A DNA stretch of 64,000 nt from Hygrophila difformis (lineage: Eukaryota; Streptophyta; Magnoliopsida; Lamiales; Acanthaceae). Shown piece after piece: positions 1-39,597 of the stretch. Every line of letters begins with the position of its first letter. Position 1 is the stretch's first letter. The notes under the pieces are model-generated. The model saw only the letters and a list, made by a program, of their open reading frames with translations, was not told the DNA's origin and made no database searches. The position numbers were made by a program, and so were the translations under genes. The stretch lies in NCBI GenBank assembly GCA_030278955.1, contig JAOANR010000004.1:17918526-17982525 (forward strand). Reading direction: 5' to 3'.

Positions 1-2250
1 AAAAGACAGCTCCCCATCAGGATGAAGGGGTATGGATCAAGAATTCCCGGCTCTTGGTGAACCACTCGTGTGTTCACTTCCTTCCGGGTGATTATGAAAT
101 ACAAACTAATGAAACGAACTAATAAATTAGTTTGTTCCGGATGCACTCACTCAGGACTCAAAAATAGGCTTTGGCAGGAGATGATAGCAGTTGAAAGAAA
201 ACTCAACCCTATCTTAGAAAATAACCAAGGCCTGGATGATGTTCCTCTAAAATTATTTATTACACTGTATTTGAGTCCAAGTGGACCCCATCTCGGTAAT
301 ATTTAATCTTAGATTCCCAACAAACAGCAGTTTTGGAAAATAATGGATTTGAAAATCATTCCCTAAACAGGTACTAGACTCTCAATTAAAACACAGATCC
401 TTTCAGTCTAGGTGAGACCTAATCGCTGACTCTGCTTCTAATTTCCCAAAATCAACCCTTGACAGAATATGAATTAGTCATAACTGAAGAATTTATCCCT
501 TACTCAGATCCGGATTTTATAAAGGAAGTTTTTATTGGAAATTTAATATGCATTATCTATTTAAGATCTAGACTTCTATTGTCCAAGGGAAGGATCCCAA
601 AATAGTATAGATCACAATAGTACATAATATTATCATGCATAAGGATATATGGAAGTGCAAAATTAATTGACCCAAAATATAGAGGTAGGTCTAGACAGAA
701 AGTGAAATGCAGATATGAAGTGGTCAGGGGACCAAAGTTATGGCAGAATAATCGGGTGGACTGTAAACATCTACTATCCAGTTTCCCAATTACTCGGATG
801 AAGCGAATTTAGACAGGTGAAACCCTAAAATGGCAGTGTCGCTACCAGTTGGGCCCCTACTGTCTGTGAATTCAGAGAAAAACCTACATGCTTCCTCTCT
901 GCAACTCTTATCAGCTAATGTTGACAGACATTAGCAGAGTTTTGTTACAGATTGGAATTCGGGTTTGTGTCGCGGACCGTGGGTCCGCGACAGAAGTGCC
1001 TCGCGACTAGGAATTTCAGAATATTAGGACAAGTGCCCCTAGACACCCATGTCGCGGAACAGCCTTCCTGTCGCTAGACGTGGTCTCGCGACAGGAAGAG
1101 GTTAGCGACATGGATGGTTCAGGACACGAGTCAGTAAAAGGTAAAAGTGAACAGTGGCATGCAAACAGCGTGATCTCACCCTATTTCCGATTAAAAAAGC
1201 ATTTCTAAGCTGAAATAACCAAACAGAATTCAAAATCTACAAGAGCATGCTTGAACAAAAAAAATAAATCTAACTAAAACAATATTAAAAAAAAGGGAGC
1301 ATAATACTAATCTAGGGTTTGATCACACACGAAACATGCATATTATCCTCAATAGAAGAAAACAGTAAGCATAACAACAAGGAAATGGGGGTCAAATGAC
1401 CCAAAAAGAAAAAAATAAAAGCGGTAATCCATGGGTTGTGAAACCCATTTCATGGTTTTGGGACACATTGGATGAATATTTTCTCATTTTATTAAATAGT
1501 TTGTTAATACCCATCATTTGGGTAATACAAACCCTAAAATCAAGCTTATCAACAAAAATAAAACTGTGAACAGTGGCTACTTATGCTATTTAAAACAAGA
1601 ACATAGATCAAAGCTGATCTAAACTAAGCTTACTGCAAAAATTAAATAATACAAAAAAAGAAATAAACCTAAACTAAGAACTACCTAGAGAGATTCTCCA
1701 AATTGTGTCTTCAAGGGAATGAATTTTCTAACTCTTAGCTCAAAGGAATCACCTCATATTTATAGAAGTGAAACCCCAGGCCCATGGGCCTTGATCTGAG
1801 GCCCGTGTCGCAAGTCATCACACACATCTCAGCCATGTCGCGGATCACGTGATGTGGCGCGAACTGAGGCATTATGCTGCAAAGCTTCTCGACTGGGTCT
1901 GGTCTTCAACTCTGTGTCGCTAGCCATACTCCTGTTGCGAGACCATGGTTCGCGCCACGGGGCTAGCGACAGGGGTCTGGGGTCAGTTTCTTCTTCATCA
2001 TGCTGGTGTGGCGCGGAACCCTCCTGTGTCGCTAGCCATGGTCTCGCGCCACGGACCTAGCGACAGGATGTCCCAGGACTGGTTCCTTTGCGTTTCATCA
2101 TTGTGGCGCTAGCCTGCCCCCTGTCGCGGGACCATGCTTAGCGTCAGGATGCCAGTCTCGCGACTGGCTCGCCTTATTGGGCCTGATGGGCCGGAACATG
2201 TATTTTTGTGGGTTTTTCTCTCTTTTCCCATCTTTTTGTATTTTGTGGGC
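1..2250 (-). mobile_element. Truncated Athila-type LTR (copy C)
   Basis: Nearly identical to 3553 onward in the next LTR and to 18009 onward in the right LTR, so the window opens inside a third LTR copy. It matches the others until the GTGGGC at 2245-2250, then breaks off about 260 bp before the terminus seen in the complete copies and joins a primer-binding-site remnant. It carries the short form of the LTR: the 1.05 kb block present in the right copy is absent. Orientation is minus, the same as gag-pol. By eye it differs from the other copies at scattered single bases. Confidence 0.9.
1757..1764 (-). promoter_or_regulatory. LTR TATA box (copy C)
   Basis: On the minus strand this reads TATAAATA. 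It lies just downstream of a CG-rich palindrome cluster. The same box is at the matching place in the other two LTRs. The LTR is truncated, but this U3 core promoter remains. Confidence 0.6.
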
Positions 2251-2260: not shown

Positions 2261-5200
2261 TGAAACTTTTGACAATTTCGCAACACGAGTATTTTCTAAT
2301 AAAATATATCAGGATTGAATTTATTGAATGAAAAGAGTTATGATTCACGGGAAAGGGGTTTAAGGATATATTCCACTTTTTTATTACTCATGTGGGGTGC
2401 TTTGATTTCAAATAGCGCTATGGACCTCCCTGGCATGAAACTTTTGACAACTTTCACGGTGCGGCCGGGATAGATAGTTCAATCTTGACCTTCAGTCTGT
2501 CACACTGAAGGTCCCTGGCCATAGGCATCGTGAAATTTATCATAGTTTCATGTCATGAAGATCCTTGCCAAGAAACTTTTGACACGTCCACTTTACATGA
2601 ATATTTTCTGAAAAATCATAATCCTGGTTTTTGATTTTATTTAATGAAACCGATTTATGATGGCGGAGTTAGGATTAGGGATATATTTATAGGTTGTCAT
2701 GTTTTTATTTACTCGTGTTAAGAAACTGTGCCCCCGAAAGCGCACGGAGTCAAAAATTGCAGTATTTATAGTAAGACCGGATCGTTCACTGGAGGATGTG
2801 CGATAGAAGCAGGGCCCACGTCGTTTTACTAGATTTTCCATTCATATTGCTCCAATGGGTTTGAAAAGTGATTAACAACTACTGGCATGAATTTAAACTG
2901 AACTATAAAAGCGTTTAAATCTATTCTACACAGCAAATAAATCTATTCTAAGAAGCGGGCAAAATTATTCTAAGAATGCGATAAACACTATCCACGGAAG
3001 CAGTGAATAAGTACACTATGCCAGCTGAGAAGCTGAATCATAATGTAGACAGAAGGGACAGGGAGAAAAGAATGAAAATTGGACAAGATTTAGATACAGC
3101 AGTATTAAACTTCCATTTTTTTATACACAGATCTTTGTTTGGGATAATTCTATCAGATAGCTAATTCTCATGCTCTCAATACTGCTTTCCCTTTAACAGA
3201 CAGGTACTTACAGTGTGAGTTTACATGTTCTTAAGACCGCAAATTCTAAGATACCACAGAATCGTAACTGCCCTGGCCTGGGTATGTTACTTCATCTGTG
3301 GTGGAAAAGCAACACCCGACAAATCATTTATTGAAATGCCAAGTACTACTATCATTCCCCCATGTCACACCCATAGATTCTAATTAAGCCCTGAACTATC
3401 CCTTAACTATCAATCCTAGTAGCAGTTACGCAACTCTCAATACAACCGAGTGACCTCTAGAGAAAGCAGTTGAAAGTAAGCGGTAAACAAAAGCGTTAAA
3501 GAAAGTAGTTAAAACCTATCACTCAGAAGTTTTGAAGGTCTGACCCTGGTAGTAAAAGACAGCTCCCCATCAGGATGAAGGGGTATGGATCAAGAATTCC
3601 CGGCTCTTGGTGAACCACTCGTGTGTTCACTTCCTTCCGGGTGATTATGAAATACAAACTAATGAAACGAACTAATAAATTAGTTTGTTCCGGATGCACT
3701 CACTCAGGACTCAAAAATAGGCTTTGGCAGGAGATGATAGCAGTTGAAAGAAAACTCAACCCTATCTTTGAAAATAACCAAGGCCTGGATGATGTTCCTC
3801 TAAAATTATTTATTACACTGTATTTGAGTCCAAGTGGACCCCATCTCGGTGTAATATTTAATCTTAGATTCCCAACAAACAGCAGTTTTGGAAAATAATG
3901 GATTTGAAAATCATTCCCTAAACAGGTACTAGACTCTCAGTTAAAACACAGATCCTTTCAGTCTAGGTGAGACCTAATCGCTGACTCTGCTTCTAATTTC
4001 CCAAAATCAACCCTTGACAGAATATGAATTAGTCATAACTGAAGAATTTATCCCTTACTCAGATCCGGATTTTATAAAGGAAGTTTTTATTGGAAATTTA
4101 ATATGCATTATCTATTTAAGATCTAGACTTCTATTGTCTAAGGGAAGGATCCCAAAATAGTATAGATCACAATAGTACACAATATTATCATGCATAAGGA
4201 TATATGGAAGTGCAAAATTAATTGACCCAAAATAAAGAGGTAGGTCTAGACAGAAAGTGAAATACAGATATGAAGTGGTCAGGGGACCAAAGTTATGGCA
4301 GAATAATCGGGTGGACTGTAAACATCTACTATCCAGTTTCCCAATTACTCGGATGAAGCGAATTTAGACAGGTGAAACCCTAAAATGGCAGTGTCGCTAC
4401 CAGTTGGGCCCCTACTGTCTGTGAATTCAGAGAAAAACCTACATGCTTCCTCTCTGCAACTCTTATCAGCTAATGTTGACAGACATTAGCAGAGTTTTGT
4501 TACAGATTGGAATTCGGGTTTGTGTCGCGGACCGTGGGTCCGCGACAGAAGTGCCTCGCGACTAGGAATTTCAGAATATTAGGACAAGTGCCCCTAGACA
4601 CCCATGTCGCGGAACAGCCTTCCTGTCGCTAGACGTGGTCTCGCGACAGGAAGAGGTTAGCGACATGGATGGTTCAGGACACGAGTCAGTAAAAGGTAAA
4701 AGTGAACAGTGGCATGCAAACAGCGTGATCTCACCCTATTTCAGATTAAAAAAGCATTTCTAAGCAAAAATAACCAAACAGAATTCAAAATCTACAAGAG
4801 CATGCTTGAACAAAAAAAATAAATCTAACTAAAACAATATTAAAAAAAAAGGGAGCATAATCCTAATCTAGGGTTTGATCACACACGAAACATGCATACT
4901 ATCCTCAATAGAAGAAAATAGTAAGCATAACAACAAGGAAATGGGGGTCAAATGACCCCAAAAGAAAAATAAAAGCGGTAATCCATGGGTTGTGAAACCC
5001 ATTTCATGGTTTTGGGACACATTGGATGAATATTTTCCCATTTTATTAAATAGTTTGTTAATACCCATCATTTGGGCAATACAAACCCTAAAATCAAGCT
5101 TATCAACAAAAATAAAACTGTGAACAGTGGCTACTTATGCTATTTAAAACAAGAACATAGATCAAAGCTGATCTAAACTAAGCTTACTGCAAAAATTAAA

Positions 5201-6046
5201 TAATACAAAAAAAAGAAATAAACCTAAACTAAGAACTACCTAGAGAGATTCTCCAAATTGTGTCTTCAAGGGAATGAATTTTCTAACTCTTAGCTCAAAG
5301 GAATCACCTCATATTTATAGAAGTGAAACCCTAGGCCCATGGGCCTTGATCTGAGGCCCGTGTCGCAAGTCATCACACACATCTCAGCCATGTCGCGGAT
5401 CACGTGATGTGACGCGAACTGAGGCATTATGCTGCAAAGCTTCTCGACTGGGTCTGGTCTTCAACTATGTGTCGCGAGACCATGGTTCGCGCCACGGGGC
5501 TAGCGACAGGGGTCTGGGGTCAGTTTCTTCTTCATCATGCCGGTGTGGCGCGGAACCCTCCTGTGTCGCTAGCCATGGTCTCGCGCCACGGACCTAGCGA
5601 CAGGATGTCCCAGGACTGGTTCCTTTGCGTTTCATCATTGTGGCGCTAGCCTGCCCCCTGTCGCGGGACCATGCTTAGCGCCAGGATGCCAGTCTCGCGA
5701 CTGGCTCGCCTTATTGGGCCTGATGGGCCGGAACATGTATTTTTGTGGTTTTTCTCTCTTTTTCCATCTTTTTGTATTTTGTGGGCTTGTTTTATTCTTT
5801 TGCCCATCTCTTTCATTCCTTTTTCTTTTCTTTTCTTTTTCTCATGTTTTTGGATTTTTCTAACATAAATGTGTAATAAAATTACATATTTATGCATTTT
5901 TCATACCAGCTCGATGTTTTTACAATTATGCATAAATCAGTCTAATTCATTTGCTTTCTTATTTGATATAAGACCGGAATGCGATCAAATGCCCGTTTTA
6001 GACACGGAAATGGATTGAAAATAATGGTCATTTCTGGCCATTATCA
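2261..6046 (-). mobile_element. Athila LTR, 3' LTR of the element (copy B)
   Basis: A 3.79 kb LTR bounded by TG...CA: plus-strand TGAAACTTTT at 2261 and ...CATTATCA at 6046. Its right end touches the polypurine tract and its left end touches a PBS remnant. It is collinear with 16715-21571 but lacks the 1.05 kb block found there, and lacks about 18 bp near 5468. It holds TATA, GGCCCA words and the TCGCGA-rich palindromes. Because copies B and C share the short form while the right LTR has the long form, B may have come from a recombination partner and not from this element's own reverse transcription. Confidence 0.9.
5312..5319 (-). promoter_or_regulatory. LTR TATA box (copy B)
   Basis: Minus strand TATAAATA, at the same place as in the other LTR copies. 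The array of TGTCGC/GCGACA half-sites lies upstream on the minus strand, at about 5360-5710. Confidence 0.6.
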
Positions 6047-6060
6047 ACATCCTCACATTT
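6047..6060 (-). other. Polypurine tract of the Athila element
   Basis: The minus strand reads AAATGTGAGGATGT and runs straight into the LTR start TGATAATGG. The second Athila-type element at 55534-55547 has almost the same tract before its LTR. A GGGGACGA word a little upstream on the minus strand is typical of the 3' end of this lineage. Confidence 0.85.
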
Positions 6061-7707
6061 AATACTGATCGTCCCCGAGCAGTCAGAGTCAATGTTCCTA
6101 AGAACACGGACTCTACATGTTCAATTCATTTTCGTGGCTTCATAAATCACATTCTTTTTGGATTGGGATAAGACAAGCGAAAACTACAAGTATTAAGTTC
6201 CCTTGATTGCAGTGTTTAATGAAATGATACTTGCTCACTACATCGGGCCTACAAATCAAACATTATTATCAACCCTTCATGAATATCATGTTTGAAAGAT
6301 GCAAAGATTAAGGATGAGAATTAGGGGATGACATGAACATTTTTAATGAAACAGAGCCTCACTTATAAGAGAATCGGGAAATTCACTCACTCTCAATTGG
6401 GGTTTAATCAGTGAACACTCATAGTCAATTTTAATTAAATTATCCCATAAGCTTGCAATCAGACCAACTCGCCACCGGCTCATTTCTTCAAATCGAGATC
6501 ATGAGGTCTTATTCAAGGGTTATAACGGGGCATACGGTTGTAACATTGGTAGGAAAGGGAATTATTGGGCTAAGAAGTGGCAAGAATTTAATTCCATCAT
6601 AACTTGGCATATTTTTATTTAAAATTTATGATCATCAATATATTTCGTCTTTCTTTCTTTTGCTTTTCTTTTCTATTGCATGACATTAGACTATGTCTAA
6701 TTTGCTTTGTCATTTGCAATTTATTTGTGTTGAATGGAATTCAACTTTTTTTTTTTTGAATCGGTTTATAACATACCGATTAATATGGATTGATGATCAT
6801 AAGTTTAATGCCTTTGATAGAATTTATCATTGCACACTTGGGTTTGAATTTCTTGGTCTTTTTATAAGGCTGTAAATAGTATAGTGGGCTTCAAAGAAAA
6901 ATTAGGCTTAAGGCTCAAATTGGTTAATCCTAAAGGGAAAATATTTTTGGGTTTGGATTTCAAAAGAAGGCCAAAAATTTTGGTTTCTAGGTGCCTCGAT
7001 CATATGCTCGATTTCTGGGAATATGGCATGGTTTTGAATCGGTCCCAATTGCAAGTTCTAGTTTCCTTTAATCAAAATGATTCTCACATCAAAGAAAATG
7101 AATGAGTAAAGTGACTCATGGCTCAAATCTCACAAGGTTGGATTGATTCATGTCATACAATATTCTTGAATTTAATCAAAGCTTAGTTCTAACAATTTAT
7201 TCAATCAAAATCTCTAACATGCAGATTTATTACCCAATAAGCTGATCGCATCATTAAATTTTTATAGCTCAAAACCTTAGGAATTCATGTCATGCATGTT
7301 CTCAATTATATTATCCCAATTTAAAAGTTTGAAAATTCAATCACAAGCCTAAATTCAACATGTGAATTTAGAGCAGGTTTATGCATACTTTTGCTGGTCA
7401 TTTAATTTAAAGCAGTAAAGAGGCACTGTTGACATACGGAGCATGTCAACAACATATTTTTGGCCTGACAGTCACTTATTCATCTTGGACTGTCAGACAT
7501 CTTTTCAGAGAAGCAATTAAAGATTGTTGCAGATCTCAATCTTGAGTTCAATTTTGTGGAAAGCAGTAAATTACATTAATTTTAAGGAATTCCTATGCAG
7601 TTAGTGCAAACCTGCATGCAAAAGAGGAAATCCCTTATATAATGCCAATACTAGGGCATAAGGAGGAACTAGGGCATACTAGGATTCGTCTTTCCTTCTT
7701 CCTTTCC
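6061..7707 (-). mobile_element. Athila 3' noncoding region
   Basis: No supportable ORF on either strand. The stretch near 6440-6580, read on the minus strand, resembles conserved 3' noncoding sequence of Athila elements. Two adjacent hairpin-forming inverted repeats lie at 7428-7450 and 7465-7496. The rest is AT-rich. Confidence 0.6.
7428..7496. repeat. Two adjacent short inverted repeats
   Basis: GTTGACAT at 7428-7435 pairs with ATGTCAAC at 7443-7450. CTGACAGTC at 7465-7473 pairs with GACTGTCAG at 7488-7496. Both are perfect, with arms of 8 and 9 bp. They lie about 210 bp downstream of the F-box stop codon. Confidence 0.7.
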
Positions 7708-8365
7708 TCAGAACATGTATCGGAGCCAGTGGACGTAGCTGGTCAGCTCACAGCGCAGGCACCAGTCGCGGTTTCTCAGGGGTGCATGCCTCCTTCTGCA
7801 GAAAACTCGGGGTAGTTGTCCTGCAAACAAGTAAGGGGCATGATTGTCTGCCATCCACGCGAGGGTGTTGGTGGATGTGTAGGTGAAAACCTCTCGGTTG
7901 GTCACCATCCTCTCGATCATTGCAATCCCCTGATTGACCTGGCCTTCATCCATCTTGCTCATGAGCATCAGTCCGCGGGTGAGGATTGACGCTTTATGAT
8001 TGTCTTCGATGCCTGGCCGTAGTAGCTCGCATGCTTGCTCTTTGTCCCCTTCTACAAATGCCATGAGTGCTGGAACAATTTGGAGATTAAACTTTCCAGC
8101 CTCAGCGCATGTGTGCAGAAATCTTTCTTTCTGCCTCCGTATCTCCTCCTGCCAGTGCCTCACCCGAGCCGCATCCAACTCGCATCGCCTGTAGACGATG
8201 GCGAGGTTTCCTGCGTCCCTCAGCTTCGTGCAAGTTCTCCTAGCTCTGAACACTTCTTTCATTTCATCCTCCCCGATTCGGGAGAGAATTTCTCCTAGAA
8301 GCTCTAGCGGAAGGTCCATCAGCTGGGTTCCTCTGGGCACTGGGTCTGGGTTTGGAAGATTGCCC
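7708..8365 (-). CDS. F-box protein carried by the retrotransposon, main exon
   Basis: Encodes an F-box near the start (LPLELLGEILSRI, then an R.TC..L block), a helical middle resembling Sel1/TPR-like repeats (ACELL...ILTRGLMLMSKMD), and a Cys/His/Trp-rich tail with WCLRCE near the stop at 7708. This layout fits the plant F-box proteins of the At2g35280/At1g67623 type, which join SKP1 and cullin to form SCF ubiquitin ligases. The exon starts at 8365, right after a strong 3' splice site (TCTTATCTTTTCAG on the minus strand). Unspliced, the first ATG is at 8319. Joined to 9486-9553 it gives a 241-residue ORF. It sits between pol and the 3' LTR, in the env position and on the same strand as pol. 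Function and expression are inferred; the F-box assignment is by motif recognition only. Confidence 0.7.
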
Positions 8366-8434
8366 CTGAAAAGATAAGAAGTGATGAATCCAATTTTTAT
8401 ATAATTTTCAGAAATTATTCAAGTCCAGAAACCA

Positions 8435-8448
8435 ACATCCTCACATTT
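8435..8448 (-). other. Second polypurine-tract-like motif
   Basis: The minus strand reads AAATGTGAGGATGT, identical to the functional tract at 6047-6060, but here the sequence that follows is TGGTTTCTGG, not an LTR start. It lies inside the predicted F-box intron. It could be a relic of an older 3' end or a central polypurine tract. Confidence 0.6.
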
Positions 8449-9485
8449 AGAGCTTCGCTCTAGACGTGAGGTTATTAAATTTCCAACTTGAATTTTTAAT
8501 TTAAAGCATAGGTAAAATAGATTTTTAAGAAATGATAGGGGTCATTGGGCCCCTATATATTTTTAATGGGCCATTGGGCCCAAGAGTTTGATTTTCAATT
8601 TTATTAAATAAGTCCGAGGCACTTGTTGAAAATGGGATGGGACGGAATGATGGAGATGAAATGCTCGAATTTGGAATGTGCAATGGAGGAGTGGCGTAAT
8701 GGATCTGCTTTTTTGGACTGCCTGGACTGTCTTGGACAGTTAAAACATCCAAAAATTTACAAACACTATTTTTTTTTTAGTTTTTAAAGGGTTGACTTAT
8801 TTTATTTAATGAAAGTGGGATGTGAGTGGTCCCATTTTGGTTTTTGAAAAGAAAGGCAGTTGGGTGACAAAATACTGCTATTTACTCACACTACAGTTCC
8901 ATTGGGAACAAAAAGAACATAAGTCAATTATTAAATCTAAACTCTTTTTGTCTTTTTCATAAGGTCACCTTTATTAAAAAGTGGAAGCTCTCATTGAGTG
9001 TTTGTACTATGTTTCCATAAATAAAAAAACATTTATTCCCACAAGGTTGTAACATGTGGGAACAAATATGCCAAAAAGATCCTTCCATCTTAATGTTCCA
9101 AGATAACACTCAGAAACATTTATTTCAAAAGCACACACTACACAGGAAAGGAAATCAGGCACTAAACATAAACCCTAAACTCAAGAATAAAGACCAATAA
9201 TATCATGGTGTTCAAAACAACACCCCAACATTCATCAGTTTGTTTTCTTGAGTTTTAAACTTTCCGAAATTTTACTCATGACAGTTTTAAAATGGGTTTT
9301 GTAAGGATCCACAAAGGTCTCAAAACAATGCTTGCGACCGAGAACACTCAAAACCTCAAAAACTGAAAACAAAAATGCATACACACAAACCGCATCCTAA
9401 CTCTCAAAAATCAAAGTAGAGAGACAGAAGAGCAAGGAAAGAAACGAGGGAGTTATGAACAGGGGGGGAAAATTGGAGCTTCTAC

Positions 9486-9553
9486 CCTGCCCTCCGTGGT
9501 TCAGTTCTGGGTAGGGGTCCTAGATTTGGAAGCATCCTGTAAAATCGGTCCAT
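9486..9553 (-). CDS. Predicted first coding exon of the F-box gene
   Basis: ATG at 9553 (MDRFYRMLPNLG...) is the first ATG after a pyrimidine-rich, ATG-free stretch of about 120 bases on the minus strand, as expected of a plant 5' UTR. A GTAGAA donor begins at 9485. Exon 1 is 68 nt (22 codons plus 2 bases) and exon 2 begins with the last base of a codon, so splicing over the 1120-nt intron 8366-9485 stays in frame and reads on through ...PNPDPVPRG into the F-box. Chance agreement of frame is one in three, so the model is plausible but unproven. The short exon itself has no recognisable domain. Confidence 0.45.
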
Positions 9554-9703
9554 AGTTTCCCTTTGAAGAAGAGATGGTTGAGTGCGAAGAACACGGTGGT
9601 GTTCGTTCGGGAGAGCAGAGAATGAGAAAGGGGAGATGAAAAGATGAAGGCAGGATGAAACTGACGTGAGCACAGGGAAAAGAGGTGAGAAGGGGGGGAG
9701 GGG

Positions 9704-9711
9704 TTATAAAT
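9704..9711 (-). promoter_or_regulatory. TATA-like box upstream of the F-box gene
   Basis: The minus strand reads TATTTATA, followed by a CT-rich leader and then the ATG at 9553. The plus strand reads TATAAATA, so the same box could instead fire rightward. It lies directly beside the CG-palindrome block 9726-10130, the same order as in the LTR U3. Confidence 0.4.
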
Positions 9712-9725
9712 ACTGAAAAAGCTGG

Positions 9726-10130
9726 TCGCGGAACCCAGACCGTGTCGCGGAGCAGGGTTCCTCGACCAGGGCATAGCGACATTAGACATGTCGCGGGAGT
9801 GAGGTCCGGTCGCGAGGCCATGCCTCGCGCCAGGGGTCTAGTGACAGATTTCAGCGAAGAAATGAAGTCAACGGGGGAAACGTGTCGCGGAATGGAAGAC
9901 CAGTCACGAGGCCATGCCCCGCAACAGGGATTCCGCGACAGCGACAGAGAGAATTAGAGACAGATGAGAGTGCGTGTCGCTAGCCAGGCCTAGTCGCGGG
10001 GTATGGCCTCGCGACACGGTTCTGGTCCGCGACAGGGGTCTCACTGTATTAGAGAGTTGTGTCGCTATCCCTCTTCTGGCGCTAGACGTGGTCCCGCGAC
10101 ACATAAGGGGTTTAGCGACACAAAATTTTG
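9726..10130. repeat. CG-rich interrupted palindrome array inside the element
   Basis: Contains many TGTCGCGG, GTCGCTAG, TCGCGA and GCGACA words in both orientations, the same vocabulary as the LTR U3 arrays at 1805-2160, 5365-5710 and 20865-21240. It sits just upstream, on the minus strand, of a TATA-like box, as it does in the LTR. It is not an exact copy of any LTR segment. Confidence 0.7.
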
Positions 10131-10474
10131 AATTTCCAAATTCTCATGAACTGGGCCCGAGTGTGATGCTGGGCTTTGAGTTCATTTTATTTGATTTGGG
10201 CCTGAATAAATTCAGTCCAATTATTCAAAAATGCATTGGGCTGACATTAAAGTAAAATATGCCTGTAAAAATTAGGTTGGGTTAATTCCATTTGTTTGCA
10301 AAAATTATTCCGGATTTAAATTGCTTTAATTTCCGGGAATATTTTCTTAAATTCATGGAATTAATCCAACCAAGAACCTGGTTTTCCGTATTACTTCTCT
10401 GCTCCTCTTTTTGATGGTTCCAATCTTTATGCAAGACAGATAAATAAAACGCATTATATTTTCTCCAAATATCA

Positions 10475-10601: not shown

Positions 10602-13600
10602 TTATTGGGTGTAAGCCGGGTCTGCCACTGCTTGGCTCTCTTTCTCCGGATCGAACTGTCCGAGGTACTCCTTTAACCGATGTCCATTCACCACTATGTT
10701 GCCCTTGTCAGTTCGGATCCTGACGGCTCCATTTTCAAACACTTCTAGCACTTCATGTGGTCCTTCCCATCTGGATTTAAGCTTCCCAGGGAACAACTTC
10801 AACCTAGAATTAAACAATAATACACTTTGACCAACATAGAAATGCTTAGACTTAATCCTGCGATCGTGCAACTTATGGGTCCGCTCCTTATAAATTCGAG
10901 AGCTTTCATAAGCTAATGCTCGTATTTCCTCAATTTCATTGAGGTCCAACTTGCGTTTGCTCTGAGCAACTTTCGGATCGAAGTTAAGCGTTTTGACGAC
11001 CCAGTAAGCCTTGTGCTCTAACTCTACAGGCAGATGACAGGCTTTTCCGAAGACAAGTCTGTAAGGGGACATCCCGATGGGAGTCTTAAACGTTGTGCAG
11101 TATGCCCATAAAGCATCATTGAGCTTACGTGCCCAATCCTTACGGGTTATCCTGACAGTGGCTTCGAGTATATGTTTGATTTCGCGGTTAGATACTTCGA
11201 CTTGACCACTAGTCTGGGGATGATAAGGCGTGCCTATCTTATGGAGGATCCCATTTTTACTCATTAAAGTTTCAAAAGCTTTATTAATAAAGTGTGTTCC
11301 TCCATCAGATATCACCACCCTAGGTACGCCAAATCGACTGAAAATGTTGTTCTTGAGGAACTTGATGACTTGGCTACCATCATTGGTCGGTAATGCGACA
11401 GCCTCGACCCATTTGGACACGTAATCGACAGCTACCAAGATATAGTAGTTTCCACCAGATGGCGGAAACGGTCCCATGAAGTCAATGCCCCATACATCGA
11501 AAATCTCAAGTGTGAGAATTCCCTTTTGAGGCATCTCATCCCTCTTGGAGAGGTTTCCTAATCTTTGGCATTTATCGCAACCTTTCACAAATGTCCTGCA
11601 ATCCTCATAGATGTGAGGCCAATAAAATCCACATTCGAGGACCTTGTGGGCCGTTCGAGCGGGACCATGGTGACTTCCGTATTCTGATTCATGGCATTTT
11701 CTGACAATTTGATAGGCTTCATGCTCAGTCACACATCGCCTGATTATTGAATCGGCGCAGTGTTTGAAGAGATAAGGTTCTTCCCAGAAGTAAATTAATA
11801 CATCTCGTTTGAACTTATTCTTCTGATGATAGTTCGAAAACTGTGGGGTTATTCCGCATGCCAAGAAGTTAGCGATGTCGGAAAACCATGGACAAGCTTG
11901 ATTATGCAGATGCAATGCGAACAACTGTTCGTCCGGAAACTCTTCATTAACGGCTTTTTCCTTTTTATCATTATCTAATCGAGATAAGTGGTCAGCAGCA
12001 CCATTATCTCGACCTCGCCTATCTTTTATTATGATGTCGAATTCTTGCAACAGAAGTACCCACCTGATTAATCGAGGTTTTGCATCTTGTTTGCTAAACA
12101 AGTATCTCAATGCTGTATGATCGGTGTACACTATGGTCTTCGTACCTATCAGATACTGTCTGAACTTGTCAAACGCGAAGACTACAGCATACATCTCTTT
12201 CTCCGTTGTGGTGTAGTTAATTTGGGCTTCATTCAGGGCATGACTTGTGTAATGAATTACGCAGTGTCTCCCATCCTTATGTTGTCCAAGAACTGCGCCT
12301 ACGGCGAGACCACTAGCATCACACATTACCTCGAAAGGTATTGACCAATCGGGTGGTTGCACTATCGGTGCAGACACCAACATCTTCTTGAGCGTGTCAA
12401 AGGCTTGGACACACGCTTCATTTATTAAGAAGGGATTTTCTTTACAAAGCAGATTAGTGAGCGGCTTGGCAATTTTAGAGAAATCCTTAATGAATCTCCG
12501 GTAAAAACCGGCATGCCCTAAGAAGCTCCTAACTGATTTGATCGAGTTAGGAAGAGGGAGATTGGAAATGATGGAAATTTTGGCTGGATCAACTTCAATG
12601 CCTGCACGAGAAATGCGATGACCTAACACTATGCCCTCAGTGACCATAAAATGGCACTTTTCCCAATTTAAAACAAGGTTAGTGTCCTCACATCTCTTTA
12701 AAACCTTAGCAAGATTAGTCAAACATTCATCAAACGTATCTCCATATACAGAGAAGTCATCCATGAAGACCTCAATGCACTTTTCGATAAATTCAGAGAA
12801 TATAGACATCATGCATCTTTGAAAAGTAGCAGGTGCATTGCAAAGACCAAAAGGCATGCGCCTATAGGCAAAAGTGCCATAAGGGCAAGTAAAAGTAGTG
12901 TTTTCGTGATCTTCATTGGCGATCACTATTTGGTTGTATCCAGAATAGCCATCTAAAAAACAATAAAACGCCCTTCCCGCCAATCGTTCCAACATTTGAT
13001 CGATAAAAGGTAAAGGGAAATGGTCCTTGCGAGTTGCCTCGTTCAACTTCCGGTAGTCTATGCAGACTCTCCATCCGGTGACAGGGCGCGTGGCAATTTC
13101 TTCCCCTTGTTCATTCTGCGTAATGCACATCCCACCCCGCTTCGGAATGACCTGCACAGGACTGACCCATTTGCTATCAGAAATCGGGTATATAATACCG
13201 GCGTCTAACAGCTTGATCACTTCCTTTCTTACCACTTCTTGCATGGGTGGGTTCAATCTTCGTTGGGGCTGGCGAGAGGCCTTGAAATTTTCCTCCATTA
13301 AAATCTTGTGCATACAAACAGAAGGGCTTATTCCTTTGATATCAGAAATGGTCCAACCGATTGCACGCACATAATTTTTAAGAACTGCCACCAGAGCATT
13401 TTCTTGCTCTTGGGAGAGCTTAGCCGAAACGATCACATGTAATTTTCTATGTTCTGCGAGAAATGCGTACTTGAGATGATCGGGTAATGTTTTAAGTTCA
13501 AGCTCTGGTGGGCATTCAACGGAAGGGAGTAATTTGCGAGAATTAGATGGGAGAAGATCAATTTTACCTTCCGGATCCTGCATCAGTACAGGATCCGCCT

Positions 13601-16556
13601 CCTCTTGATCGGCGTCGTCATGGAAATCTGTGCCGTCAAACTCCTCCAAATCCCCTGTTTCGGGATCGGCAAAGTGAACGGCTTTGCACCCTTTGTGCTC
13701 CACGCCAGCAGGCTTCAGTACCTGCTTTGAAATCTCATCCAGCATCATTTCATGATTAAATCCAGAGTCAAGCTCTCTCTCCTCACACTCAACTTCCTCT
13801 CCACTATCTATTACAGAAAACATGGAACAAGCTCCCTCATTCGGAAACTTTTGCAGCTGCTCCATATCAAAGGTGATTTCCTCGCCATCGACCCTCAATG
13901 TGACCTTTCCAGATTTAACATCAATTAGTGCACCACCAGTGGCCAGGAATGGGCGTCCCAGGATAAGAGGTATGTCGGAGTCCTCCTCGATGTCCAGAAT
14001 GATGAAATCCACTGGAAATGGAGTACTGACTACTTTAATTATCACATCTTTCAAGATCCCGATTGGCTTTGTAATTGATCTATCTGCGAGCTGGAGCCTC
14101 ATCCTGACTGGTTCAACTACTCCAAGCTTAAGACGTTTAACCATGGTTAGTGGAATAATGTTAATGCTAGAGCCGAGGTCACACAGTCCTTTTCCGGCGT
14201 TGTTCTGGCCAATCCGAATCGGCAATGTATAGCATCCGGGATCCTCTTTCTTCTCTGGCAGCTTCTTCTGAATGATAGCACTGCAAGTGCTGTTGAGTAC
14301 CACCAATTCGTCCTGCTCAACCTGTCTCTTTCCTGAAATCATTTCTTTCAAGAACTTAGCATAGACTGGCATTTCAGAGATCATTTCAATCAAAGGAATG
14401 GTAATCTCAACTTCCCGCAGTCTTTTCAGAAATTTTTCAAACTTCAGATCTTGTTGCTTATTTTTAAGTCTAGCCGGGTAAGGAACCCTAGGCATGAACT
14501 TGTTTTTGTTATCATGTTTTGGTGGCAGTTGGTTAGAGGTTGTACCTTCACCATTACCATTTTCTGTTTCTGCCGTTCCTTTTGCAGCGTCAGTCTGCTG
14601 TTCGGCTGTCTCTTTTTCAGCTTCCTTTTCACTCTCCTCAATGTCGCTTTCCAGTTCATTTCCTTGTACCAGTTTCTCCTTGCTCTTGGGTCCTTCCAAA
14701 ATTTTGCCAGATTTCAGTGTGATGGCCTTACACTGAGGATTTTTCTCAGCAGCGCTGGGCAGAGTTCCTTGGTCTCTTTTCTGCATTTCCTTGGCCATTT
14801 GCGTAACCTGCGTCTCCACATTCCGGATAGAAGACTGCAACTGAGTGTTGATTTCCTTTTGACTGGTGATGAAGTCAGTCATGAGGGTCTCTAATCTGGA
14901 AGGGGGTTTCTGCTGGTTCTGGTTCCAATTCTGATTCTGACCTTGGTTTTGAACAAACTGGTTCTGATTTGGGGCAAACTCATGTTGTGGTTGCTGAAAG
15001 TTTTGGAAATTTTGGTTTTGGGGTGGTCTGGCTAGAATCTGAGGCTGAAAACCTGGGCTAAAATGCTGGGGCCTTGGTTGGTTGAACTGTTGAGGCTGGG
15101 TCAGCAAGTGGGAATTCAAAGCGTTGTTGTTGGAATATGAAAGGTTCGGGTGCCGGTTTTGGAATCCACCTGCATAGTTACAGCTTTCATTTGCCACTTG
15201 CTGACAGGATTCAGTGGAATGCGGGCCTTGGCAAGTCCCGCAAACAGCTTCAGCATTTTGAGCCTGTGTAGAGCTCCCAGCTTCCTGATTCAAAGCCAAG
15301 ACGGCCACTTGGTCTTTCAGTTTGTCCAGTTCGGATTTCCCTGCTGTACCTACAGCACATAAACCACGAGGGGGAGGGGAATTAACATCATCAGAAAGTA
15401 CAGTTCTGTTTACACTCATTGCCTCAATCTTGGCCCAAGCTTGGTCCATGGGAATGTATAGCAGGTGTTGACCACCAGCGGCATCAAGCATGTTCTTCCA
15501 TGCTGGGGTCAAACCGCTATAGAACTTTCTCAATTTCTCCCACTCATGGAAACCATGCTGGGGACATTTCATGAGCATGTTGAAGAACCGTTCCTTTGCA
15601 TCATACAGGGACTCGTCTGGTTTCATCCTGAATTCCGCAATCTTGGAGCGGCATTCATCCACCTTGGACTCCGGGAAGTACTTTGTCAGGAAATTTCTGA
15701 TCACATCCTCCCATGCAGACTTCTGATTTACGGGCAGTGATTCGTACCATGTCCTCGCCCCGCTAGTCAGAGAGAAGGGGAACAGCCTCAGTCGAATGGT
15801 GTTAGCAGATACATTCTGGTTCTTAATGGTGTCACATAGCTCCAAGAATGTTTGCAAATGATCATGCGGATCTTCATGATTTGCTCCTGCGAACTGGTTG
15901 CTCTGAACAAGATTGATGAGGGCCGGCTTCAATTCGAAATTCCTGGCCAAGAATGGAGCTTGTCCAGAAATGTTCAAATATGGTTCTAGAATGGGCTGCA
16001 TATAGTCAGCTGCGGCTGCCTGTTGATTGTTTCTTGGCCCTCCTTGGTATTGTTGTGGGTAAAAATTCTGATTCGGATAGTAATTTCTGGGATCGTTGAA
16101 ATCGTTAGGGTTAGGATGATTCTGGTTTTGGTTGAACTGGGGGTCTGGAAATTGAGGATTCTGAAAATTTTGGTTATTAGGATTATTCTGGTTAAGTGGG
16201 TTGTTTTGGGGGTTTTGGTGGTTTGGGTTGGGTGGAGGTATCTCGAAGGGTTGCTGCTCGAGATTTGGGGGATTTTCACCTCCCTGAATTACTTGAGGGG
16301 GGAGATCCTCCAAGTTCTCAACGTCAACGTTTTCTGGGTCCTCTTGGATGTTTTGGAGTGGTGGGTTAAGTGGAATGTTTGGGGGATTGCCATGGTCATC
16401 TGCCATGTCTGAGATGTCACTGCTTGTGCTCGGTGAGAGGAGAGCTTGTCTTTCCCGTTCCTTTCTTTGTCTAGCTTCCGCCCTCAGACGACGAGCTGTT
16501 TTCTCAATCTCTGCGTTGAACGGGATCTCGGCTGGAGTCTCCTTCCTCTTTTGCAT
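10602..16556 (-). CDS. Athila-type gag-pol polyprotein
   Basis: An unbroken ORF of 1984 codons beginning at the first ATG after the PBS leader. Order: charged N-terminus, long Asn/Pro/Gln-rich stretch (about 55-190), gag capsid domain (about 195-390; [19 protein letters not shown]), a CX2CX3HX4C zinc knuckle near 440, another Gln/Asn-rich stretch, aspartic protease near 790 (CDLGSS), reverse transcriptase with FMDDFSVYG near 1265, RNase H from about 1410 (CDASG, YTDH), and integrase with HHCC zinc finger and D-D-E residues near 1690 (GIDFMG), 1750 (SDGGTHF) and 1788 (QVEVSNRE). All expected catalytic motifs are present and no frameshift is seen, so the element is young or selected. Lineage: Ty3/gypsy Athila, from the gag motifs and the tRNA-Asp PBS. 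Confidence 0.95.
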
Positions 16557-16696
16557 AGAACAGAGGTCTTAGCTATGACAGTACCTGCACATTCCCCAGG
16601 TTAGAATCGGTTTTGGGGTGAATATTTATATTTATATGTATAAGCTAACTAGGAGCAATGAGGAATGTAATTCTCTAATAATACGGCGCTGCATCC
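16557..16696 (-). other. Untranslated leader with possible splice donor
   Basis: The 140 bp between PBS and gag. On the minus strand it contains GTGCAG/GTACTG, a fair 5' splice site with the intron starting at 16584. If used with the acceptor at 8366 it would remove gag-pol and join the LTR leader to the F-box exon, like a retroviral env message. This is an alternative to the internal-promoter model. Confidence 0.35.
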
Positions 16697-16714
16697 TCCC
16701 CGGCAACGGCGCCA
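16697..16714 (-). other. Primer-binding site, tRNA-Asp type
   Basis: The minus strand reads TGGCGCCGTTGCCGGGGA, complementary to the 3' end of plant tRNA-Asp including CCA. It immediately follows the LTR end (...AAGTTTCA) at 16715. This PBS is characteristic of Athila elements. Confidence 0.9.
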
Positions 16715-18970
16715 TGAAACTTTTGACAATTTCGCAACACGAGTATTTTCTAATAAAATATATCAGGATTGAATTTATTGAATGAAAAGAGTTATGATTC
16801 ACGGGAAAGGGGTTTAAGGATATATTCCACTTTTTTATTACTCATGTGGGGTGCTTTGATTTCAAATAGCGCTATGGACCTCCCTGGCATGAAACTTTTG
16901 ACAACTTTCACGGTGCGGCCGGGATAGATAGTTCAATCTTGACCTTCAGTCTGTCACACTGAAGGTCCCTGGCCATAGGCATCGTGAAATTTATCATTGT
17001 TTCATGTCATGAAGATCCTTGCCATGAAACTTTTGACACGTCCACTTTACATGAATATTTTCTGAAAAATCATAATTCTGGTTTTCGATTTTATTTAATG
17101 AAATCGATTTATGATGGCGGAGTTAGGATTAGGGATATATTTATAGGTTGTCATGTTTTTATTTACTCGTGTTAAGAAACTGTGCCCCCGAAAGCGCACG
17201 GAGTCAAACATTGCAGTAATTTATAGTAAGATCGGATCGTTCACTGGAGGATGTACGATAGAAGCAGGGCCCACGTCGTTTTACTAGATTTTCCATTCGT
17301 ATTGCTCCAATTGGTTTGAAAAGTGATTAACAACTACTGGCATGAATTTAAACTGAACTATAAAAGCGTTTAAATCTATTCTACACAGCAAATAAATCTA
17401 TTCTAAGAAGCGGGCAAAATTATTCAAAGAATGCGATAAACACTATCCACGGAAGCAGTGAATAAGTACACTATGCCAGCTGAGAAGCTGAATCATAATG
17501 TAGACAGAAGGGACAGGGAGAAAAGAATGAAAATTGGACAAGATTTAGATACAGCAGTATTAAACTTCCATTTTTTTATACACAGATCTTTGTTTGGGAT
17601 AATTCTATCAGATAGCTAATTCTCATGCTCTCAATACTGCTTTCCCTTTAACAGACAGGTACTTACAGTGTGAGTTTACATGTTCTTAAGACCGCAAATT
17701 CTAAGATACCACAGAATCGTAACTGCCCTGGCCTGGATATGTTACTTCATCTGTGGTGGAAAAGCAACACCCGACAAATCATTTATTGAAATGCCAAGTA
17801 CTACTATCATTCCCCCATGTCACACCCAAAGATTCTAATTAAGCCCTGAACTATCCCTTAACTATCAATCCTAGTAGCAGTTACGCAACTCTCAATACAA
17901 CCGAGTGACCTCTAGAGAAAGCAGTTGAAAGTAAGCAGTAAACGAAAGCGTTAAAGAAAGTAGTTAAAACCTATCACTCAGAGGTTTTGAAGGTCTGACC
18001 CTGGTAGTAAAAGACAGCTCCCCATCAGGATGAAGGGGTATGGATCAAGAATTCCCGGCTCTTGGTGAACCACTCGTGTGTTCACTTCCTTCCGGGTGAT
18101 TATGAAATACAAACTAATGAAACGAACTAATAAATTAGTTTGTTCCGGATGCACTCACTCAGGACTCAAAAATAGGCTTTGGCAGGAGATGATAGCAGTT
18201 GAAAGAAAACTCAACCCTATCTTAGAAAATAACCAAGGCCTAGATGATGTTCCTCTAAAATTATTTATTACACTGTATTTGAGTCCAAGTGGACCCCATC
18301 TCGGTGTAATATTTAATCTTAGATTCCCAACAAACAGCAGTTTTGGAAAATAATGGATTTGAAAATCATTCCCTAAACAGGTACTAGACTCTCAGTTAAA
18401 ACACAGATCCTTTCAGTCTAGGTGAGACCTAATCGCTGACTCTGCTTCTAATTTCCCAAAATCAACCCTTGACAGAATATGAATTAGTCATAACTGAAGA
18501 ATTTATCCCTTACTCAGATCCGGATTTTATAAAGGAAGTTTTTATTGGAAATTTAATATGCATTATCTATTTAAGATCTAGACTTCTATTGTCTAAGGGA
18601 AGGATCCCAAAATAGTATAGATCACAATAGTACATAATATTATCATGCATAAGGATATATGGAAGTGCAAAATTAATTGACCCAAAATATAGAGGTAGGT
18701 CTAGACAGAAAGTGAAATACAGATATGAAGTGGTCAGGGGACCAAAGTTATGGCAGAATAATCGGGTGGACTGTAAACATCTACTATCCAGTTTCCCAAT
18801 TACTCGGATGAAGCGAATTTAGACAGGTGAAACCCTAAAATGGCAGTGTCACTACCAGTTGGGCCCCTACTGTCTGTGAATTCAGAGAAAAACCTACATG
18901 CTTCCTCTCTGCAACTCTTATCAGCTAATGTTGACAGACATTAGCAGAGTTTTGTTACAGATTGGAATTC

Positions 18971-20026
18971 GGGTTTGGAAATTAAGATAGATAAAATAAA
19001 ACTGTATCTGGATAGGAGTCAGCTGAGCAGCTATTATAACCCCGGATAGGCGAACCGCCAAGGCTTCCACTGACAGCCATCCAGACCATGCAAAATGACA
19101 CTTAGTAACTAATACCCAGATTACGAGCTAGTTATCCGTGAGGGAATACCCGCCAACATTAGTCTGATGTATTCTTTGCTAAATGTTACACACCATACAC
19201 AAATGACAAAACAAAATAAAATGAAATAAAGAGAAGAACTTGCATGAGAGACATTGGTTTCTCATGCAAGGTTGTGGAATCAATCCATAATTGATGGCTT
19301 AAATAATCCCTCCTACCATAATTAATTACAGTCCGGATTATCTGTTTAAGACATCATGAGTTCGTTTATACAAGATTATTTTAATGACAATTGAACAAAG
19401 ATCCTTTAATCACAACAATTAGTGATTTAATTATTGCTAATCAGAATCATCAATCATTAGTGACTAGAGGGTTCAATTAATTAATGAATGGGAAATGGAG
19501 AATCAAAATTTTGGCAGCATAACGCCTTATATTGCAATTCTAGGGTATTACATCTTAATCCGTGGGATTCAGATGTGAGTTTTTGCAATATAATGGGGGT
19601 TAGAAGATGAGAATTTTGGAATTTAAATAGGGAGGAGGATTCTGTTGAGATACCATAAATGGTGTCATGGGCCTAGACCCGCGACATGGGTATCTCGACA
19701 GATTTCCAGAAATTTTGGCAGAGTTTCATCCTGTGTCGCTAGACGAAAGTTGTGTCGCGGACCATGGGTCCGCGACAGGTGTTTAACGACACAGAGTTGC
19801 CTCTGGAAATTTCCAAGTATTTGGCTTCCCAGTCGCTATCCTGGGATTGTGTCGCAGACCGTGGGTCCGCGACAGGATGCCTAGCGACTGGGTTTTCAAA
19901 ATAATTATGCAAGGCATAATTTCCTGTCTCAGAGCAAAAATTGTGTCGCGGACCGTGGGTCCGCGACAGGAACCATGCAAAAGAAAATAAAAGGGATTTG
20001 AGTCCCTGGTCGCTAAGCAGGGTTTG
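18971..20026. repeat. Long-form block of the LTR, bounded by 7-bp repeats
   Basis: GGGTTTG occurs at 18971-18977 and again at 20020-20026. In the two left LTR copies the sequence jumps from the first to the second, losing 1049 bp. This is what a deletion between short direct repeats would leave. The block includes three of the four perfect or near-perfect CG palindromes. Confidence 0.85.
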
Positions 20027-20051
20027 TGTCGCGGACCGTGGGTCCGCGACA
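19753..20051. repeat. Four spaced CG-rich palindromes
   Basis: Units at 19753-19777, 19850-19874, 19944-19968 and 20027-20051 each read TGTCGCGGACC, a short centre, then GGTCCGCGACA, with one or two changes. The arms are 11 bp and the spacing is 83-97 bp. Only the last unit is kept in the short-form LTRs (near 982 and 4530). Each can fold as a tight hairpin and holds several CpG sites. Confidence 0.85.
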
Positions 20052-20816
20052 GAAGTGCCTCGCGACTAGGAATTTCAGAATATTAGGACAAGTGCCCCTA
20101 GACACCCATGTCGCGGAACAGCCTTCCTGTCGCTAGACGTGGTCTCGCGACAGGAAGAGGTTAGCGACATGGATGGTTCAGGACACGAGTCAGTAAAAGG
20201 TAAAAGTGAACAGTGGCATGCAAACAGCGTGATCTCACCCTATTTCAGATTAAAAAAGCATTTCGAAGCTGAAATAACCAAACAGAATTCAAAATCTACA
20301 AGAGCATGCTTGAACAAAAAAAATAAATCTAACTAAAACAATATTAAAAAAAAAGGGAGCATAATCCTAATCTAGGGTTTGATCACACACGAAACATGCA
20401 TACTATCCTCAATAGAAGAAAACAGTAAGCATAACAACAAGGAAATGGGGGTCAAATGACCCCAAAAGAAAAATAAAAGCGGTAATCCATGGGTTGTGAA
20501 ACCCATTTCATGGTTTTGGGACACATTGGATGAATATTTTCCCATTTTATTAAATAGTTTGTTAATACCCATCATTTGGGTAATACAAACCCTAAAATCA
20601 AGCTTATCAAACAAAAATAAAACTGTGAACAGTGGCTACTTATGCTATTTAAAACAAGAACATAGATCAAAGCTGATCTAAACTAAGCTTACTGCAAAAA
20701 TTAAATAATACAAAAAAAAGAAATAAACCTAAACTAAGAACTACCTAGAGAGATTCTCCAAATTGTGTCTTCAAGGGAATGAATTTTCTAACTCTTAGCT
20801 CAAAGGAATCACCTCA

Positions 20817-20824
20817 TATTTATA
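20817..20824 (-). promoter_or_regulatory. LTR TATA box (copy A)
   Basis: Minus strand TATAAATA. The transcript start is expected about 30 bp to the left, near 20785, which would make most of the LTR the transcribed R-U5 part. This is the promoter for the intact gag-pol. Confidence 0.65.
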
Positions 20825-21571
20825 GAAGTGAAACCCTAGGCCCATGGGCCTTGATCTGAGGCCCGTGTCGTAAGTCATCACACACATCTCAGCCATGTCG
20901 CGGATCACGTGATGTGGCGCGAACTGAGGCATTATGCTGCAAAGCTTCTCGACTGGTCTGGTCTTCAACTCTGTGTCGCTAGCCATACTCCTGTCGCGAG
21001 ACCATGGTTCGCGCCACGGGGCTAGCGACAGGGGTCTGGGGTCAGTTTCTTCTTCATCATGCTGGTGTGGCGCGGAACCCTCCTGTGTCGCTAGCCATGG
21101 TCTCGCGCCACGGACCCTAGCGACAGGATGTCCCAGGACTGGTTCCTTTGCGTTTCATCATTGTGGCGCTAGCCTGCCCCCTGTCGCGGGGACCATGCTT
21201 AGCGCCAGGATGCCAGTCTCGCGACTGGCTCGCCTTATTGGGCCTGATGGGCCGGAACATGTATTTTTGTGGGTTTTTCTCTCTTTTCCCATCTTTTTGT
21301 ATTTTGTGGGCTTGTTTTATTCTTTTGCCCATCTCTTTCATTCCTTTTTCTATTCTTTTCTTTTTCTCATGTTTTTGGATTTTTCTAACATAAATGTGTA
21401 ATAAAATTACATATTTATGCATTTTTCATACCAGCTCGATATTTTTACAATTACGCATAAATCAGTCTAATTCATCTGCTTTCTTATTTGATATAAGACC
21501 GGAATGCGATCAAATGCCCGTTTTAGACACGGAAATGGATTGAAAATAATGGTCATTTCTGGTCATTATCA

Positions 21572-34905: not shown

Positions 34906-35038
34906 ACCACGCAAGAAGAGAGCCCCCAAGTCACTCGGGAGCTTTAGTCCAGAAAAAAGCACAATAATATACTGCGCTTCTTCAGTTCCGGTGGTTTTTA
35001 TAAATCCAAACCTGATGCAGCAGCTAAACCATTAATAA
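34906..35038 (+). mobile_element. LINE segment between the hAT and MULE insertions
   Basis: Short stretch reading KSLGSFSPEKSTI...VFINPN. After the insertions are removed and the inverted spacer is turned back, it continues into the spacer and then into 44277. Placed in the LINE by position, not by a recognised domain. The last 9 bases, CATTAATAA (35030-35038), are a MULE target duplication. Confidence 0.45.
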
Positions 35039-35267
35039 GGTCTCCATTATTTACACTCAAAATAGTTTGGGGCACACAAATTATAGATAAAATATCTCAA
35101 ATACCCCTACTCAATATACTTAACGAAGGACTCAGGATTAAGGCACATTCTAAGAGGATCGGGCACACAAATTTTTTTTCTTCCCTCTTTCTGCTCCTCG
35201 TTCAAACCAAAACCTAAAACCCTACTTGTTCTCCTTTGGTTTTCCTTATGCATTTTTTTCATATTCC

Positions 35268-36523: not shown

Positions 36524-36759
36524 GTCCAAATGTTATAGAAAATCCAAATAATCTATATAGAATACAAAATTCACAGTAACCATGTAATATATCATATCCA
36601 CATAACAATTAACCATCCAAATCCAAATAGTCTGTGTTAATCAAAAGAACATTAACCATCCCATTCCACAGTAACGATGTAACATCATATCACATTAGTA
36701 CACCACATAACACTATCAGGAAAACGCCACAATAACGATTTACTATCGTGAAAACAATA

Positions 36760-39339: not shown

Positions 39340-39597
39340 TTTTTGACAGCTTTCAGCCTTCTCTTCCGCCTCTTCTTCTCTCTTCGCCTCTTCCAAGTTT
39401 TTGTGTGCCCTAAACCTATACCTCTTCCCGTTTTTGGTGTGTGTGTGTTTGGAAAATAAAGACCTGGACTCCAATTCTATTTTTGTGGGATGAAAGGGTA
39501 AAATGGATAAAGGTTTGTTGTGTGCCCGTGGTGTGCCCCTATCCAAGTATATTTTTGTGTGTTTAAAGTAAAAATGTGTGTGCATATAACCGGACCC

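Follow-up and report, generated by a model that had tools for sequence, protein, structure and literature searches.

INTRODUCTION

The described elements closest to the one reported here belong to the Athila lineage of the Ty3/gypsy OTA clade, namely, the env-class elements Athila, Calypso, and Cyclops and the env-less element Diaspora. In Diaspora, the pol stop lies 128 bp before the PPT and the 3′ LTR, according to the available part of its description (PMC1142308). Comparable extra open reading frames (ORFs) in plant LTR retrotransposons are gene23 of Grande, which has its own promoter (PMC7264820, in the part available), ORF4 of Retand, and the plant mobile domain found in Ogre (PMC6317226, in the part available). 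The extra ORFs of Grande and Retand run antisense, and the accounts available assign them no known function. Host-type coding sequence also occurs within LTR elements in Bs1 and other captured genes; the available part of PMC7264820 describes transduced host genes in plant LTR elements as known, usually in one or a few copies.

Some other parasites of plants encode F-box proteins, such as P0 of poleroviruses and Clink of nanoviruses. Lentiviruses and a few plant viruses have accessory genes with which they hijack ubiquitin ligases. Reports on the two plant-virus proteins have P0 promoting the degradation of AGO1 and Clink binding SKP1 and RB (PMC3588083 and PMC9035678, in the parts available). 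In a partial literature collection without preprints, searched mostly as titles and abstracts, we found no account of an F-box gene shared by a whole retrotransposon family.

Here, we describe an LTR retrotransposon of the plant Hygrophila difformis (915-Mb genome) that carries an F-box gene. It lies on the minus strand of contig JAOANR010000004.1, inside a stretch of 64,000 nt that we analyzed as a whole and call the window.

RESULTS

An Athila-like element with an F-box gene in the env position

The features of the element, in the order in which it is read, are these:

16715 to 21571, minus strand: 5′ LTR (copy C), about 4.86 kb, from self-BLAST blocks
16697 to 16714, minus strand: primer binding site (PBS) TGGCGCCGTTGCCGGGGA; an identical 18-mer lies behind the LTR of a second family (L050:4544)
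10602 to 16568, minus strand: gag-pol, a single open frame of 1,988 amino acids
10473 to 10489, minus strand: P1, first PPT-like 17-mer, 113 bp past the pol stop and preceded by a hairpin
9554 to 10472, minus strand: internal LTR-like promoter and 5′ leader
9700 to 10130, minus strand: GTCGC/GCGAC array
9712 to 9704, minus strand: TATA-like TATTTATAA
9486 to 9553, minus strand: exon 1 with start codon, 68 nt
8366 to 9485, minus strand: intron, 1,120 bp
8433 to 8477, minus strand: P2, hairpin and second PPT-like 17-mer (8449 to 8433), about 66 bp before the acceptor
7708 to 8365, minus strand: exon 2, coding, ending with the stop; F-box at about 8322 to 8212, TPR_27 at about 8157 to 7894
7426 to 7497, minus strand: two conserved RNA hairpins just 3′ of the F-box stop
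6062 to 7707, minus strand: 3′ noncoding region of the element, common to copies
6045 to 6061, minus strand: P3, PPT adjoining the 3′ LTR
2262 to 6046, minus strand: 3′ LTR (copy B), from self-BLAST
1 to 2250, minus strand: third, truncated LTR (copy A), giving a tandem LTR-internal-LTR layout, from self-BLAST

Pfam finds gag, RVT_1, RT_RNaseH, Integrase_H2C2, and rve in the gag-pol frame, that is, a pol of gypsy order (RT, RNase H, and integrase) with Retrotrans_gag, and the PBS and PPT adjoin the LTRs. The PBS is of a type that we take to be typical of Athila. A single RNase H region is present, and the Pfam scan at E ≤ 1 shows no archaeal-type second RNase H, the domain that marks Tat elements (PMC6317226, in the part available). 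On Pfam domain content and PBS/PPT, the element is best classed as Athila-like rather than Tat.

The flanking LTRs C and B are separated by a K2P distance of 0.0096, which corresponds to 0.37 million years at 1.3 × 10−8 substitutions per site per year. They are unequal in length because a stretch of about 1.04 kb with GTCGC-type arrays (18978 to 20019) is present in LTR C and absent from LTRs A and B. At 2243 to 2260, the truncated LTR is fused to the start of a PBS, marking an internally deleted tandem neighbor of the element. Rfam and tRNA scans of the 64-kb window were empty. Elsewhere in the window are a large inverted pair about 91% identical (35038 to 44277), with plant-mobile-domain (PF10536) ORFs at 37839 to 38501 and 40727 to 41629, and an open PPR-type ORF of 717 amino acids (48134 to 50287).

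The segment from pol to the 3′ LTR measures 4.5 kb. It contains the ORF at 7708 to 8418 on the minus strand, which is sense to pol and stands in the env position. Pfam assigns this ORF TPR_27 (E = 3.6 × 10−6, 27 bits, cut-off 27), F-box (E = 5.1 × 10−4, 20.3 bits, 0.2 below the cut-off of 20.5), and F-box-like (E = 1.2 × 10−3). Among 28 aligned ORFs (25 from this family and three from the second family), 27 match F-box and 27 match TPR_27 at E ≤ 1. No envelope family has a Pfam match in the window ORF or the 28 aligned ORFs. A previous reading of the window from its sequence only had placed an F-box ORF beside an intact gag-pol in the env position of an Athila element. Both features hold, and its call of an F-box is borne out across the family, with the reservation that the window ORF itself scores just under the cut-off.

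The stop-free run of 236 codons exceeds the longest run (220) in 2,000 shuffles of 7700 to 8430, and a chance ORF is ruled out by this test together with the dN/dS given below. A structure model of modest confidence (pLDDT 72.8; about 57 to 65 for residues 1 to 40) places a helical repeat behind the F-box; a single-sequence fold was poor (pLDDT 40). Searching solved structures with the modest-confidence model gave no match at E ≤ 0.001, and searching them by sequence returned designed PPR proteins alone, at E = 0.09 or worse. IMG/VR scans with the F-box protein and with pol found no relatives.

The same reading had also joined an upstream ATG exon in frame to the ORF across 1,120 bp. The phases agree between the donor GT (9485 to 9484) and the acceptor AG (8367 to 8366), and the splice sites are kept in a set comprising the window and 40 further copies. 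The acceptor AG is present in 41/41. Three copies (L021, L022, and L028) have no exon-1 region; in the other 38, the GT donor is kept in all, the ATG in 37, a length of 68 or 65 nt in 36, and a stop-free exon in 36. The encoded peptides mostly have a common RF....PNLGP core, and we infer splicing from exon 1 to exon 2. The ATG inside the ORF at 8319 is not a shared start because it is ATG in just 16/41 copies (CTG in 24 and CTT in one). Mean p-distance is 0.092 for exon 2, 0.205 for the intron, 0.235 for exon 1, and 0.261 for the promoter. Exon-1 nucleotides are thus without special conservation, and exon 1 should not be over-read.

The gene is spread with the element across the host genome

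A genome search with the ORF yielded 6,552 candidates, of which the best 150 (window included) were scored; they are 82 to 100% identical, 144 are full-length over 203 amino acids, and 122 are stop-free. As the top-scoring matches, they are biased toward intact copies. The gene is therefore found at many other places, and a single recent capture is ruled out by these 150 scored places. The 40 copies that we fetched, half from near the top of this list and half from near the bottom, were picked by their F-box hit and so all have it. Among them, pol lies upstream in 37/40, the start of a 3′ LTR downstream in 38/40, and both in 35/40. L021, L022, and L028 are without everything before the late intron, and L009 and L018 end before the LTR. 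This sample leans to open frames, since 3/40 fetched copies have a listed internal stop versus 28/150 overall.

The association was also approached from the side of pol, where the best 147 of 24,534 candidate pol ends were scored. A listed F-box lies 2.6 to 5.4 kb downstream on the same strand for 56 of the 147, and for none of the 147 is an F-box listed on the opposite strand. We fetched four of the remaining 91, which have no listed F-box, and the gene was present in 4/4: two full-length copies at 82% identity, one at 78% that is cut by the end of its piece, and L070 at 56% with one stop. Judged from the few members tested, the gene is likely present in all family members; a one-copy transduced host gene, missing in other family members, does not describe it.

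No source gene was identified in host-genome searches that scored roughly the top 150 candidates, a depth at which repeats may conceal host genes. One candidate host TPR_27 gene (L052, intron-split by eye) reaches a best E of 9 × 10−5 with one second-family ORF, and does not match the window ORF at E ≤ 1. Because it is weakly related to the element ORFs, we do not name it as the source.

The F-box protein is under purifying selection

The dN/dS of the F-box exon is 0.20 (NG86, 40 sequences, 780 pairs, with the frameshifted L037 left out), which upholds the earlier suggestion of selection. From this ratio, in a sample that leans to open frames, the encoded protein is under purifying selection. 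Over the 465 pairs shared with the pol C-terminus, the ratio is 0.200 for the F-box versus 0.118 for pol. Exon-2 identity at codon positions 1, 2, and 3 is 0.928, 0.945, and 0.854. CpG decay as the sole cause of the low ratio is ruled out by a transversion-only dN/dS of 0.24.

The ratio depends on divergence: 0.63 at dS below 0.02 (the two nearest pairs), 0.33 at dS 0.02 to 0.05 (39 pairs), and 0.16 at dS 0.5 to 1 (55 pairs). Variants seen at least twice comprise 106 synonymous and 49 nonsynonymous changes, and singletons comprise 66 and 79; with an N:S site ratio of 3.3, the per-site values are about 0.14 and 0.36, respectively. Old changes have been filtered more than young ones, which is the pattern of a gene needed in active lineages. 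The allele L070 differs from the window at dS 1.27 with a ratio of 0.24, and from the other alleles at dS about 1.0 to 1.4, with ratios of 0.21 to 0.29 at dS above 1. For the same pairs, synonymous divergence is higher for the F-box (0.29) than for pol (0.14), so dates are unsafe; the excess fits recombination or CpG decay.

An LTR-like internal promoter, PPT-like modules, and a recombining 3′ segment

The region 3′ of pol and P1 is built like an LTR U3, with about 350 AT-rich bases followed by the GTCGC/GCGAC array, the TATA-like box, and a leader. Array density is 34.8 per kb in the promoter versus 11 per kb in the LTR U3 and 0 to 2.6 per kb in other stretches, and the promoter–U3 alignment scores 48, against a maximum of 30 over 300 shuffles. 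The 38 typable copies fall into array types A (GTCGC, 15 copies) and B (CGGCGC, 23 copies). In 15/15 copies with LTR U3 sequence (seven A and eight B), the internal promoter has the same type as the copy's own LTR. Since both bear the same repeat arrays, the internal promoter would be transcribed together with the LTR.

Array type is orderly on the pol tree (four changes in 34 copies; minimum of 1,000 shuffles, five) and scattered on the exon-2 tree (10 changes in 37 copies; shuffled mean, 11.5), again with 10 changes when the exon-2 tree is limited to those 34 copies. Fst between the types is 0.35 to 0.79 from the pol end to 8969 (within the array by construction) and 0.25 and 0.14 in the next two intervals; from 8568 to 5969 it ranges from −0.24 to 0.08, never above the 95% permutation level. 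The contrast in trees and Fst indicates recombination between two backbones for exon 2, the late part of the intron before it, and the 3′ noncoding region. The earlier reading had missed this shuffling of the cassette, as well as the internal LTR-like promoter and both extra PPT-like modules.

The 17-mer TAAATGTGAGGATRTTG occurs at three sites, P1, P2, and P3. Allowing up to two mismatches, P1 is found in 38/41 copies (33 exact; the window's is one base off); P2 is found in 40/41 (38 exact; column identity 0.974) and P3 in 38/41 (35 exact). A hairpin stands upstream of P1 in 38/38 copies and of P2 in 38/40. An acceptor-like stretch follows P1, and its AG is missing in the window copy. Homology between P1 and P2 downstream of the 17-mer, taken alone, is weak (P = 0.08). 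It is unlikely that P1 and P2 are useless, decayed LTR relics, because the 17-mers persist at all three sites although much of the sequence around them has drifted. The internal modules may serve in plus-strand priming and in exchange of the cassette.

Two hairpins follow the F-box stop. The fold of 7395 to 7520 has a z of −3.67, and its 36 pairs are standard in 1,376/1,454 cells across 41 copies. Within the hairpins at 7426 to 7497, one pair shows a clear compensatory change, 7443/7435, which is CG instead of TA in 12 copies. Identity reaches 0.98 in the 41 copies at 7605 to 7645, a stretch outside any listed ORF with a TATATAA and an acceptor-like GCATGCAG.

A copy of a second family carries tandem F-box-type ORFs

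A genome search with TPR_27, in which the best 150 of 5,039 candidates were scored, returned mostly one other dispersed family, recognized by scores of 50 to 55 bits and an open frame of 260 amino acids. One copy was examined as three unjoined pieces (L050, L049, and L051, at G000:C11:18046500-18069500). Its LTR is 70% identical to another LTR of the window (55548 to 58929), and it shares the PBS of the window element. It has gag, a protease-like region (by eye), and then at least four tandem ORFs of the F-box/TPR_27 type, two of which begin at a splice acceptor (by eye). The 260- and 197-amino acid ORFs pass the F-box cut-off (26.3 and 23.8 versus 20.5 bits), the 247-amino acid ORF has a weak F-box match alone, and a 123-amino acid piece has a weak TPR_27 match alone. 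The window ORF is 31 to 35% identical to the three longer F-box ORFs.

To the 3′ side of the tandem ORFs lie two hairpin-PPT-like modules, ORFs without a Pfam match, and an ORF related to 52024 to 54110 of the window. From gag to a Transposase_32-like ORF, no RT or integrase was seen on that strand. By eye, a copia-like RT before the LTR (L050:1-1260) and the RNase H/integrase-like ORFs on the minus strand (L051:5858-7819) seem to belong to other elements. The window holds at 52024 to 58929 a remnant of an element related to this family, with a PPT at 55533, an LTR from 55548, and an ORF at 53302 to 54339 that matches Transposase_32 at E = 9.5 × 10−10, below the cut-off.

DISCUSSION

The spacing of P1, 113 bp past the pol stop, resembles that of the Diaspora PPT in the part of its description available. 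Unlike Athila, Calypso, Cyclops, and Diaspora, the window element has an F-box/TPR_27 protein as its extra ORF, and it also has two internal PPT-like modules and an internal LTR-like promoter. In contrast to the antisense ORFs of Grande and Retand, as these are described in the accounts available, its ORF is sense and has a recognizable F-box. With Bs1 and similar captures it has in common a host-type coding sequence within an LTR element; those are reported, in the part of the source available, from one or a few copies, whereas this gene is multi-copy and constrained. The likeness to P0 and Clink is one of kind, with no sequence relation claimed, as the window protein has a plant-type TPR_27 region and a retrotransposon setting.

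We favor, with reasonable though not high confidence, the reading that an Athila-like family of LTR retrotransposons has long possessed this as an accessory gene, with a product predicted to be an SCF adaptor. It reads as the element's own accessory gene because it is multi-copy and constrained and has conserved splice sites and an LTR-matched promoter. Its acquisition looks old, given its presence in 4/4 pol copies tested, the dS of about 1.0 to 1.4, and the homologous F-box ORFs of the second family. Of the recent capture or selection proposed from the sequence, it is thus selection that stands.

An SCF adaptor is the most likely activity because an F-box is joined to a repeat domain: 27/28 ORFs match the F-box at E ≤ 1, and the substrate-type TPR_27 behind it in the window ORF reaches its cut-off of 27 bits. 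The protein is thus probably an SCF adaptor. The F-box would bind SKP1/ASK, and the TPR region and conserved C-terminus would hold a host (or element) protein for the SCF ubiquitin ligase, a recruitment that would benefit the element. Among plausible candidate targets is a factor of silencing, as the earlier reading proposed, or of chromatin. More tentatively, and with the odds rather against it, the whole may be a lentivirus-like accessory system, in which SCF adaptors degrade a host factor (silencing or chromatin) that restricts the element, with an LTR-matched internal promoter, an exchangeable PPT-bounded exon cassette, and tandem F-box exons in the second family. If so, the PPT modules may help the cassette to move between genomes during reverse transcription, and the tandem exons of the second family perhaps keep pace with diverging host targets.

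The protein might instead serve the element's own cycle, in Gag turnover or assembly or as a chaperone, rather than the destruction of host proteins. Proposals of a chaperone function exist for plant-element ORFs in the env position (PMC7264820, in the part available), the window F-box score is borderline, and the second-family copy pairs gag with several F-box-type ORFs, with no RT or integrase seen on that strand between gag and the Transposase_32-like ORF. We regard this as unlikely, since the F-box core and the TPR-type region are both conserved, as an SCF adaptor would predict.

It is improbable that the F-box block began as an independent element and landed in an Athila copy. P1 stands right behind pol and in front of LTR-like U3 sequence, an order that does resemble a 3′ LTR junction, but the layout is common to copies, and conserved PPT-like sites flank the block. 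A nested insertion as an ancient founding event is possible. Quite improbable is a dispersed, domesticated F-box family kept for the benefit of the host, for which the available part of a report on Thlaspi, describing an expansion of retro-duplicated F-box genes (PMC8764390), offers a parallel; pol is constrained too in the same copies, and promoter type tracks LTR type. That a host gene fragment was transduced by chance and then copied along as a neutral passenger, as transductions in plant LTR elements might suggest, is scarcely credible against 150 scored places, the kept exon-1 start and splice sites, a dN/dS of 0.20, and an allele still at ratios of 0.21 to 0.29 at dS above 1.

The accessory-gene reading suggests that the element may tamper with the protein-disposal system of its host. 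If a plant retrotransposon lineage keeps such a gene by selection, then chromosomal parasites, too, can use the strategy of hijacking ubiquitin ligases. The old question of what env-position ORFs do in plant elements becomes testable, and an element-borne gene could help to explain dispersed copies of F-box genes in plant genomes.
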